Assembly (NCBI GenBank): GCA_030608765.1
Contig: JAUWDN010000110.1
Coordinates: forward strand, 1 to 5,437
Direction of reading: 5' to 3'
DNA: 5,437 nt
DNA from: Promethearchaeota archaeon
Lineage (GTDB): Archaea; Asgardarchaeota; Lokiarchaeia; Sigynarchaeales; SOKP01
The position numbers were made by a program, and so were the translations under genes. This document shows, in pieces, positions 2,662 to 5,437 of this stretch (positions are counted from its first letter, which is position 1; each line of letters opens with the position of its first letter). The notes beneath the pieces are model-generated. The model worked only from the letters and a program-made list of their open reading frames with translations. It had not been told where the DNA came from and made no database searches.

Positions 2662-4917
2662 TTATTTAATTGGGCGACTGTTAGCTTGGAAGATTGGACC
2701 GATAAACTGACTATACAAAATACTGAAGGCAGTTTGATTTGACACTACACTTATCATTTCGCCTTCTTTCTCTGTTGCAGGACCGATGATGACTTCTTCT
2801 GCGTCTCGCGTGAGTGCGAAGAAATCGCCAGCGCCACTAAGTTGTCTGAACTGGATGTTTCCCAACCCCATCATTTTACGTATTATATCACCATAGGTGT
2901 TCATATCGAAACGAGATGTAAGCATAAAGCGCACAGATTTCTTCTGAAAAGCGTATTCGCTTATAACTTGTAAAATCTCAGGTAATACATAGGGCATTAC
3001 AATAATGATGGAAGATTTAACCCTATAAATAGCGTCTTTTATAGCAGCTATTAAAGCGTCTCGACCTACTACTTGCCAAGTAGTAATATCTTCTATTTCT
3101 GGGATAGAACTTGAAGCGATGTGTATATCGCTAAGTTTATTTTCATTTTTTTCAGCAAGCTCGGTACCATCGTCAATAGAATTCATAAATTGAAGAGTGA
3201 AATCTGCTATTGCATCTTTGATATTCTGAATAGTATCTCGAGTGGTAGTAGAGAGACTATTTTGTAAGGTTTTCGCATTTTCTTCATATTTGGATTTGTG
3301 GTCTATTAACATTTCACTTAAATTCCTATCCAAATCTGCTGATTCATCACCCCATAGGTTAATCTCAGCTGTTATTTTATCCGAAGTGTCTCGTTTTCCC
3401 CCTGTAAATTTGTCATCGAGATCCCTAATCCAATCCTCTTTAATTCTCTTAACATCAATGTCATACTCACCATAATGCCTTAATGATTCCTCTTTATGTC
3501 TATTAATCGCTTCATCGTATTGTCTGTGATGAGTTTTAAGCGAGTTTTCTAAAGAATCTTTCAATTTAATCGTTGTATCAGAGCAATCTTTTACGCCATT
3601 TTGTAGAGTAGTGTCAATTTCGCCAGACATATCTGCCGCTAGCGTTTCTAATTGAACGTTAATTGTTTCTTGAGCTTTGTGATCAAGGTCTGTAGTTTCA
3701 TTAACAACATTATCATTCTCTTTTGTCATAATTTCAGTAACATCTGATTTTAAACTATCTGTTGTTTCCCTTGTATTTTTAATATAATCCTCACTCGTGG
3801 TCGTAAAGTCATCCTTCATCGGTTCAGTGTATTTTAAGATACTTTGAATAGTTGTTTCATGCCTTGCTTTGTATTTTTTCTTTTTGCCCATCCAGAAAAA
3901 GCCTTTTTTCCCCATATCTTGAGTAAAATCTGTAAATCTATTTGCGTGTTCTAAAAGGTTATCAATTAGTGTTAATGTCATGCTTTTAAAATCGTTGGTT
4001 TGATCTGTCAATACTCTATGTCTTTCGTCAACTGTAGCCTTTAAATCCGTTTGAAGCGTGTCCGTTGTATTTTTTAGGTGATTTAAGTGTTCTTTTAATA
4101 GATTTGCTATTCTATCTTTCAAATCGACAACTATTTTATCCATGCGTTCAAGATATTTTTCGAGAATTTGTTCCATTCTTGGTTTGAGATCATTAGCGAT
4201 AGTTTGATGCCTATCAACATGATCATCCAAATCGCTTTTTAATTCCCTTTCTAGTTCCTCTACTCTTTTTGTAAAATCTGTTAATAAATTTGATATTAAA
4301 CCAGTTAAACCGTCTTTAGTTTTATTCACCATAGATTCGTTTTCTTTTACTCTAGTATCGCTAATATTTTTGATATTAGAATTTAGGGTATTCATAATGG
4401 AATGTATATTTTCTTCCAAAGTCTTTGAAGTGTCTGTGAATCGATTTCTTGAGCTATTAATTCTGTCTCTTTTATTATTGTTTTTAGTATCCGAATCATC
4501 AAAAAAAGTCTTAAGTTGATCATCAACAGCAGTTACTACCTCATTTATACTTTTCTCTTGAATAGCTTCTAATTTTTCAAATCGATTTGATTGATCCCCT
4601 AAGATCGAGTCCTTAATTTTACCAATTTCGTCTCTAAAGATTTTAGATTCTCCAATATACAATTCAAAGAATGGTTCTAAAGGAATATATCTATCTACAA
4701 TCCCAGTTACTTTTTTAAGAAAGCCTTTCTCGACTAACCAATCAGTAATTTCAAGAACTAATTCATATGTCAACTCTGGATGTTCTTCTGCTAAGGAGAG
4801 ATAGACCTCAGACGATGTTGCTCTTGGCACTCTAAGGTAAACGATGTAAACGTTGATTTGCTCTTCGGTGAAACCATATCTCGTGAAAATTTCCTTCGTA
4901 AATTCTTTTAAGCTCAT
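2662..4917 (-). CDS. TrmB-like winged-helix protein with giant coiled-coil and PLD-like C-terminal domain
   Basis: A 751-residue protein in three parts. Residues 1-84 form a winged helix of the TrmB/MarR kind: FTEEQINVYIVYLRVPRATSSEV, a helix around 50-64, then LVEKGFLKKV and the wing DRYIPLEPF. Residues about 85-605 are almost entirely charged, Thr/Asp/Lys-rich helix with heptad-like leucine spacing and only two prolines (246 and 366); this suggests a long coiled-coil rod. At its midpoint (335-353) sits a Lys/aromatic patch, GFFWMGKKKKYK. Residues about 610-751 form a compact alpha/beta domain (DALIAAIKDAIYRVKSSIIIV, KSVRFMLTSRFD, DAEEVIIGP, then AFSILYSQFIGPIF). It resembles the PLD-like effector domain of TrmB regulators; the HxK of the catalytic motif is replaced (Asp698-Phe-Phe700) and only Asp705 fits. 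TrmB regulators are usually about 250-350 residues, so the rod is the oddity. GGAG at 4929-4926, 8 nt before the ATG, fixes the start. Likely a DNA-binding regulator or architectural protein; ligand and targets unknown. A purely structural role is the alternative. Confidence 0.85.
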   Translation of the reverse strand: MSLKEFTKEIFTRYGFTEEQINVYIVYLRVPRATSSEVYLSLAEEHPELTYELVLEITDWLVEKGFLKKVTGIVDRYIPLEPFFELYIGESKIFRDEIGKIKDSILGDQSNRFEKLEAIQEKSINEVVTAVDDQLKTFFDDSDTKNNNKRDRINSSRNRFTDTSKTLEENIHSIMNTLNSNIKNISDTRVKENESMVNKTKDGLTGLISNLLTDFTKRVEELERELKSDLDDHVDRHQTIANDLKPRMEQILEKYLERMDKIVVDLKDRIANLLKEHLNHLKNTTDTLQTDLKATVDERHRVLTDQTNDFKSMTLTLIDNLLEHANRFTDFTQDMGKKGFFWMGKKKKYKARHETTIQSILKYTEPMKDDFTTTSEDYIKNTRETTDSLKSDVTEIMTKENDNVVNETTDLDHKAQETINVQLETLAADMSGEIDTTLQNGVKDCSDTTIKLKDSLENSLKTHHRQYDEAINRHKEESLRHYGEYDIDVKRIKEDWIRDLDDKFTGGKRDTSDKITAEINLWGDESADLDRNLSEMLIDHKSKYEENAKTLQNSLSTTTRDTIQNIKDAIADFTLQFMNSIDDGTELAEKNENKLSDIHIASSSIPEIEDITTWQVVGRDALIAAIKDAIYRVKSSIIIVMPYVLPEILQVISEYAFQKKSVRFMLTSRFDMNTYGDIIRKMMGLGNIQFRQLSGAGDFFALTRDAEEVIIGPATEKEGEMISVVSNQTAFSILYSQFIGPIFQANSRPIK

Positions 4918-5318: not shown

Positions 5319-5437
5319 ATGAAAAAATTAAGTAAAATTCTCTTAGGCACAATTTTTCTAATGATCTTATTTTCGACGATTACTTCATTCAATGTCGTAG
5401 CCGTTGGAGCTCCAGACGATACTGTTGAAGTTCCTAC
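5319..5437 (+). CDS. N-terminus of an exported protein (3' end outside window)
   Basis: ATG at 5319 opens a frame that stays open to the right edge: 39 full codons and part of a fortieth. The N-terminus is a textbook Sec signal peptide. It has a basic n-region MKKLSK, a hydrophobic core from Ile7 to about Phe24 (ILLGTIFLMILFSTITSF), then a polar stretch NVVAVGAPDDT. Cleavage after Ala28 (VVA) fits best, because Pro32 disfavours cutting after Ala31; retention as a membrane anchor is also possible. No lipobox Cys is seen. The mature part is only PDDTVEVPT, too little to name a family; substrate-binding proteins, S-layer or surface proteins are all possible. Ribosome binding is weak: AGAG followed by an 11-A run that ends in the start codon. 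The gene is transcribed divergently from the TrmB-like gene, making it a candidate target of that regulator. Confidence 0.75.
   Translation, partial: MKKLSKILLGTIFLMILFSTITSFNVVAVGAPDDTVEVP

Follow-up and report, generated by a model that had tools for sequence, protein, structure and literature searches.

A TrmB-like protein of Asgard archaea whose long helical insert very probably folds as an antiparallel hairpin

The 5,437-nucleotide stretch of Promethearchaeota contig JAUWDN010000110.1 analysed here (the window) contains a gene for a 751-residue product (the window protein), in which fold comparison identified a winged helix at the N-terminus and a PLD-like TrmB sensor fold at the C-terminus. 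The intervening residues are nearly all helix in a structure model, and arm lengths, coevolution and AlphaFold2 together indicate that this insert is almost certainly an antiparallel hairpin, with two arms of about 250 residues each (ca. 37 nm) that turn at a cationic-aromatic tip (residues 337-349). Such a topology leaves both terminal domains at the base, the tip alone being distant. A previous sequence-only reading had proposed a winged helix (1-84), about 520 residues of charged helix and a PLD-like domain (610-751), all of which are confirmed with slightly different limits (1-82, 83-603 and 607-751, respectively). Its view that a single rod separates the two domains is rejected on the same three lines of evidence; the reach of tens of nanometres that it gave to the linker stands, but not the full extended length, because the hairpin is half as long. 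An assembly error joining two separate genes was also considered and rejected. Labels beginning with L, G and P designate the loci, genomes and proteins of the analysis.

Paired arm lengths and coevolution in the helical insert

Three long homologues in a first alignment contain two inserts each, of 40/40, 40/40 and 44/44 residues, situated at mirror positions. In a divergent set of 26 rows, comprising the window protein and 25 further rows mostly picked for divergence, arm 1 has lengths of 248, 259, 288, 292, 299, 310, 354 and 398 residues, the longest pair being 398/404, and arm 2 exceeds arm 1 by six residues in all rows except L111. The same difference occurs in each of the 238 rows of an ortholog set, which includes listed proteins of at least 700 amino acids and locus open reading frames (ORFs) above 700 bits and of at least 740 amino acids; this set is redundant (190 distinct rows, with an effective number of 58 at 90% identity) and its score cut-off excluded L101, L104, L105, L111 and L118. 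Arm 1 spans 248 residues in 222 of these orthologs and shows one of six other lengths in the remaining 16, and the difference between arms is constant at six while the tip varies in length (13, 14 or 17 residues). Arm lengths change in steps of 11n or 11n+7, and both arms display a hydrophobic period of 3.66-3.68, with nearly no power at 3.5; both arms are thus a hendecad rod that changes in length without loss of register.

The pairing also holds when the arms are divided at a conserved mid-rod site (see below). The distal parts measure 100/96 residues in 25 of the 26 divergent rows and 89/85 in the remaining one, L096, which has one hendecad fewer per side while both of its proximal parts are longer by 51 residues. 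This symmetry is explained if the arms pair at each height, and an extended rod fails to explain it. Two points nevertheless limit this argument. The length steps are common by descent, which leaves few independent events, and L111 and L118 break the rule of six residues, with about 14 more in arm 1 and four fewer in arm 2, although these values derive from a profile hidden Markov model alignment at low similarity (L111 is 20% identical to the window protein over 702 aligned residues).

Coevolution was evaluated as mutual information with average product correction, summed along diagonals, both directly and on rank-transformed values smoothed across seven diagonals. The antiparallel sum peaks at i+j = 682, close to double the midpoint of the predicted loop (341.5). 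In the smoothed, rank-transformed data the best antiparallel value is 4.7, at 683, and smoothed parallel offsets reach at most 1.4; likewise, when i+j from 640 to 730 is considered, the smoothed score peaks at 680-686 in each of six segments of 50 residues along arm 1 (overlap of 10). Without smoothing, the best antiparallel diagonal reaches 7.1 and, as a further point against the hairpin, a single parallel offset (d = 340) reaches 6.2, so that the argument is carried by the breadth of the peak and not by its height alone. The strongest single coevolving pairs are scattered, as expected at the available depth. The earlier picture of an extended parallel coiled-coil dimer, with the domains at opposite ends, would account for the long helices and for the isolated offset at 340, but it is hard to reconcile with equal paired length changes in both halves or with a broad antiparallel peak of uniform register, and we consider it extremely improbable.

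AlphaFold2 modelled the piece comprising residues 232-452 as helix-loop-helix. The model of the whole protein has lower confidence at 221-250 and 441-460, at about equal height on the two arms, and shows arm 2 interrupted at 446-449, an interruption that is absent from the model of the piece. The arms would pair within one chain, although length symmetry and coevolution are blind to the distinction between this and a domain swap, which would pair arm 1 with arm 2 from another chain and form a two-headed rod. PMC4158304 describes TrmB itself as possibly forming a domain-swapped dimer. Two results argue against a swap, namely the turn of only 5 to 8 non-helical residues in single-chain AlphaFold2 models and the arm difference that stays at six while the tip varies in length, and we therefore regard it as improbable.

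The mid-rod site and the tip

Midway along the hairpin, the ortholog set has His233, His237 and Cys445 in every row, whereas residue 444 is Asp in 229 rows and His in nine (Table 1). Cys445 is the sole cysteine of the window protein and lies opposite His237 in the coevolution register. Within the divergent set, all four residues are kept in 25 of 26 rows, with L101 showing Y, H, K and S instead. The His-His-[Asp/His]-Cys group is a candidate site for a metal that would connect the two arms in the ortholog group; since the rod has eleven histidines with conservation in over 200 of the 238 rows, which speaks against a metal, we hold the chances of this assignment at about even. Both HxxxH and DC are also kept in the distant L111 and L118. 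L109 and L110 have a P/G-rich loop close to their centre to which all internal indels are confined, with HxxxH and a DC placed about symmetrically around it, which suggests that these proteins might also be hairpins. Conversely, the other 17 of the 21 distant relatives scanned lack this pair of motifs in the rod, among them L122, where both occur only in an N-terminal extension. The clasp would thus appear to be a feature of the ortholog group and a few relatives, and not of the whole phylum.

The tip is of the RGSAFKALFxGKHKKYK type in many divergent orthologs, and its family-mean net charge is +5.2; the C-terminal domain averages +2.0, and the winged helix and all arm segments are negative. 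F340, W342 and K345 are present in 222, 216 and 233 of the 238 ortholog rows, respectively, with no tip column fully invariant across the set. For most of the other long relatives (L108-L127, read in part) the position of the tip could not be fixed by homology. With its cationic-aromatic composition, a membrane is the simplest suggestion for its partner.

Table 1. Features of the gene under study, in window coordinates
Feature	Position	Strand	Remarks
Whole gene, 751 amino acids, stop included in span	2662..4917	-	
Winged helix, residues 1-82	4672..4917	-	Fold comparison and model; net charge -5, family mean -4.2; Leu at the position of the TrmB DNA-contact Tyr
Hairpin arm 1, residues 89-336	3910..4653	-	Model, arm lengths, coevolution
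HxxxH, residues 233-237	4207..4221	-	Both His in 238/238 ortholog rows
Pro246	4180..4182	-	In 238/238 ortholog rows; possible kink in arm 1, about level with the interruption of arm 2
Tip, residues 337-349, KKGFFWMGKKKKY	3871..3909	-	Net charge +6
Hairpin arm 2, residues 350-603	3109..3870	-	Model, arm lengths, coevolution
[DH]C, residues 444-445	3583..3588	-	Opposite HxxxH in the coevolution register
PLD-like TrmB-type C-terminal domain, residues 607-751	2665..3099	-	Fold comparison

Descent from TrmB, DNA reading and comparison with known rods

TrmB and TrmBL2 are archaeal regulators, the latter a chromatin protein. Both gave the best PDB rows for the window protein and show an identical order of winged helix and PLD-like fold, although the short dimerising helix of TrmB is replaced in position by a hairpin of about 520 residues. 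The window protein has no match to the TrmB family PF01978 at E<=1; however, the cut-off of 25.6 bits is passed by the distant long relatives L116 (44.9), L118 (28.3) and L127 (26.1), with no match in L108 and L124, and by both of two further relatives scanned (P0154, 40.1; P0156, 40.7). These scores, obtained by sequence comparison, support a descent from TrmB. One distant long relative also matched NF040851 and NF041141, far below cut-off. Compared by sequence with the PDB, the C-terminal domain retrieved only two chance-level rows (E 1.5), whereas fold comparison found TrmB; no HKD motif was seen in it by eye in the alignment. The earlier reading of TrmB-like ends holds at the level of fold.

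The winged helix, in turn, differs from those of TrmB proteins. Its residues 9-79 have a net charge of -5. By comparison, 21 of the 29 PF01978 matches from four related genomes average +2.6, with values from -4 to 10 (the eight omitted were mostly partial and include the long-coil relative L153); the two lowest-charge domains among the 21 belong to open frames that are 650 and 652 residues long. According to PMC4158304, Tyr50 in the recognition helix of TrmB contacts DNA, and MreA, another family member, has Ser in its place. An alignment shows this Tyr in all six short TrmB controls, but neither in the window protein, which has Leu55, nor in four long-frame members; none of the 238 ortholog rows has Tyr at this position. 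By eye, it occurs in 17 of the 21 PF01978 domains, the exceptions being L138, L140, L143 and L144, two of which are the frames of about 650 residues. Altogether, the PLD-like sensor domain of TrmB is found in the window protein, and its DNA-contact Tyr and short dimerising helix are not. DNA binding by the winged helix thus seems doubtful from its composition, although the basic residues K4, R32, K68 and R76, near-invariant in 237, 230, 235 and 238 of 238 rows, make another DNA surface possible. Of the DNA-to-membrane or surface link proposed earlier, the attachment through the tip may hold, whereas the DNA side is questionable in view of charge and the missing Tyr.

These data bear on two alternatives. 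The protein could be an ordinary sequence-specific TrmB repressor, with the hairpin as an oligomerisation handle or ornament and perhaps divergent membrane-protein genes as target. The TrmB-type ends fit this, as does the divergent gene found upstream in 34 of 50 loci (see below), but the acidic winged helix, the absent Tyr and an exact upkeep of length that speaks against an ornament make it unlikely. A protein-protein scaffold or cytoskeletal strut that does not bind DNA, with the winged helix and PLD-like fold as docking modules, is a more serious contender, if still somewhat short of an even chance. Winged helices act as docking modules in some other complexes, and this option agrees with an acidic winged helix and acidic arms and with the C-terminal domain in which no HKD motif was seen; against it, the four near-invariant basic residues leave room for a DNA surface.

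A hairpin with its ends together and its tip far off is a shape otherwise known from chromosome-folding machines. As in SMC and Rad50, the terminal domains would meet at one end of a long antiparallel arm, the antiparallel pairing being computed and its location within one chain probable, and arm lengths are restricted; in SMC their distribution is multimodal, with a spacing of about 100 residues (PMC5344682). The arms of the window protein differ in being hendecad, with steps of 11n or 11n+7, and its termini are a winged helix and a PLD-like domain in place of a split ATPase head; no ABC ATPase head or hinge family was found among its Pfam or NCBIfam matches at E<=1. In short, the window protein resembles an SMC arm in shape but is not an SMC protein, and is TrmB-derived while lacking two of the TrmB features looked for. 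For the tip half, the best VIA-align row was the winter flounder hyperactive type I antifreeze protein (4ke2; 195 of 196 residues aligned), unrelated in sequence (10% identity). Hyperactive type I antifreeze is a helical hairpin with 11-residue repeats, no terminal domains and another role. Foldseek also gave a weak row for the dynein stalk (3vkg; TM 0.38, E 0.87), a helical hairpin with a binding tip, although that tip is a folded domain and its base is AAA.

Matches of the window protein to apolipoprotein, ZorA, SpiroCoCo, ExoVII and baculovirus PEP were all below cut-off and were discarded as common coil composition; for PF01442 (Apolipoprotein A1/A4/E), it scored 27.9 bits against a cut-off of 90. 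Some distant relatives pass this cut-off (L124, 123 bits; L055, 99 bits), which we read as an effect of 11-residue repeats. A literature search of titles and abstract openings, with most subscription papers outside its coverage, found no description of this architecture.

Distribution, gene neighbourhood and possible role

Out of 227 genomes from the phylum to which G001 (the genome with L017) belongs, 183 gave a match to a full-length profile, some of the matches being fragments at contig ends; by hand count, the best E is at or below 3.8e-49 in 68 of the 227, corresponding to close orthologs, and a gap to 5e-31 follows. The profile of the C-terminal domain matched 218 of 227 genomes at E<=1e-6, although matches weaker than the best 150 may include ordinary TrmB proteins. 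Among these best 150, 139 belong to open frames of 550 residues or more, including 39 with no fewer than 1000 and a maximum of 2092, so that the domain is commonly preceded by a long insertion in this phylum. Profiles were run on Asgard genomes, and a third protein search gave three matches, two carrying Asgard names. Further long TrmB-like relatives (L052, L055, L108, L127 and others) range from about 730 to more than 1700 amino acids, with coils of differing composition; in L108, an internal repeat of the coil is visible by eye. L051 contains a 210-residue protein (1378-2010) that is mainly a PLD-like domain, closely similar to its counterpart in the long family (E 1.6e-34). Partial gene copies L059 and L060 lie far apart on one chromosome of G004. 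A natural split gene was dismissed there as probably an assembly matter, because the copies are 96% identical over 232 residues and adjoin masked bases.

Gene neighbourhoods were counted in loci L001-L042 and L088-L107 with a match above 400 bits. At least one member of a divergent gene cluster occurs within five ORFs upstream in 34 of the 50 loci with at least 2.5 kb of upstream sequence. This cluster, as joined by BLAST, comprises a small protein with a signal-like N-terminus and a hydrophobic stretch at its C-terminus, together with a membrane protein, about 417 residues long, that has winged helices at its end (in L002, HTH_HVO_0163_N and HTH_24). A divergent layout is usual for a regulator and its target; here it is compatible with regulation or with joint membrane work, and proves neither. 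In the window, the start of the divergent small-protein gene, with a signal-like N-terminus (MKKLSKILLGTIFLMILF...), occupies positions 5319-5437 (+); in relatives, the membrane-protein gene comes after it. On the downstream side, 44 loci have 2.5 kb of sequence or more, and in 30 of them a Fae-Hps gene is no more than five ORFs away; in the window, a fused formaldehyde-activating enzyme/hexulose-6-phosphate synthase is encoded at 1126-2409 (+; NF009833, 530 bits). The window also contains the C-terminal part of a B12-type radical SAM protein, cut by its edge (3-611, +; PhpK/BchE-like NCBIfam matches below cut-off), and a 99-residue ORF without family match (608-907, -), by eye like a small protein near the gene in other loci (e.g. 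L008).

The explanation that we favour, as moderately probable when taken as a whole, is a TrmB-derived hendecad hairpin of about 37 nm that acts as an ATP-free tether or strut, and not as a motor, given that no ATPase family was found. The short linker helix of TrmB would have become the hairpin, with the winged helix and PLD-like domain side by side at the base. The tip would be held at a fixed distance; since changes in arm length keep the register, its rotational phase would probably be fixed as well. The base might hold a partner, either DNA or, given the acidic winged helix, perhaps protein, while the tip would dock on a distant surface, most likely a membrane. The mid-rod site would join the arms, perhaps through a metal, and may set the stiffness or bend of the rod. 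While the fold of the ends, hairpin topology, register and paired quantised length changes are computed results, function as a tether is more tentative, at somewhat less than even odds. The boldest version is unlikely to hold in full: Asgard TrmB proteins turned into ATP-free, SMC-shaped rods with a membrane-binding tip and hendecad-set length, with a clasp of metal or thiol type (HxxxH and [DH]C) that switches stiffness or bend among the Lokiarchaeial orthologs and in a few relatives. If true, metal or redox state would control the distance of the base, with chromatin or another partner, from the membrane.

Asgard archaea are relatives of the ancestor of complex cells, and little is known on how this lineage, the closest to eukaryotes, organises its chromosomes and membranes. 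The mid-rod site and the tip give sharp predictions (metal content, liposome binding and a fixed spacing of about 37 nm), and the paired-indel rule provides a natural experiment in rod mechanics, in which arms stay equal while length moves in register-keeping steps. A common archaeal regulator would thus be convertible into an SMC-shaped rod without an ATPase.
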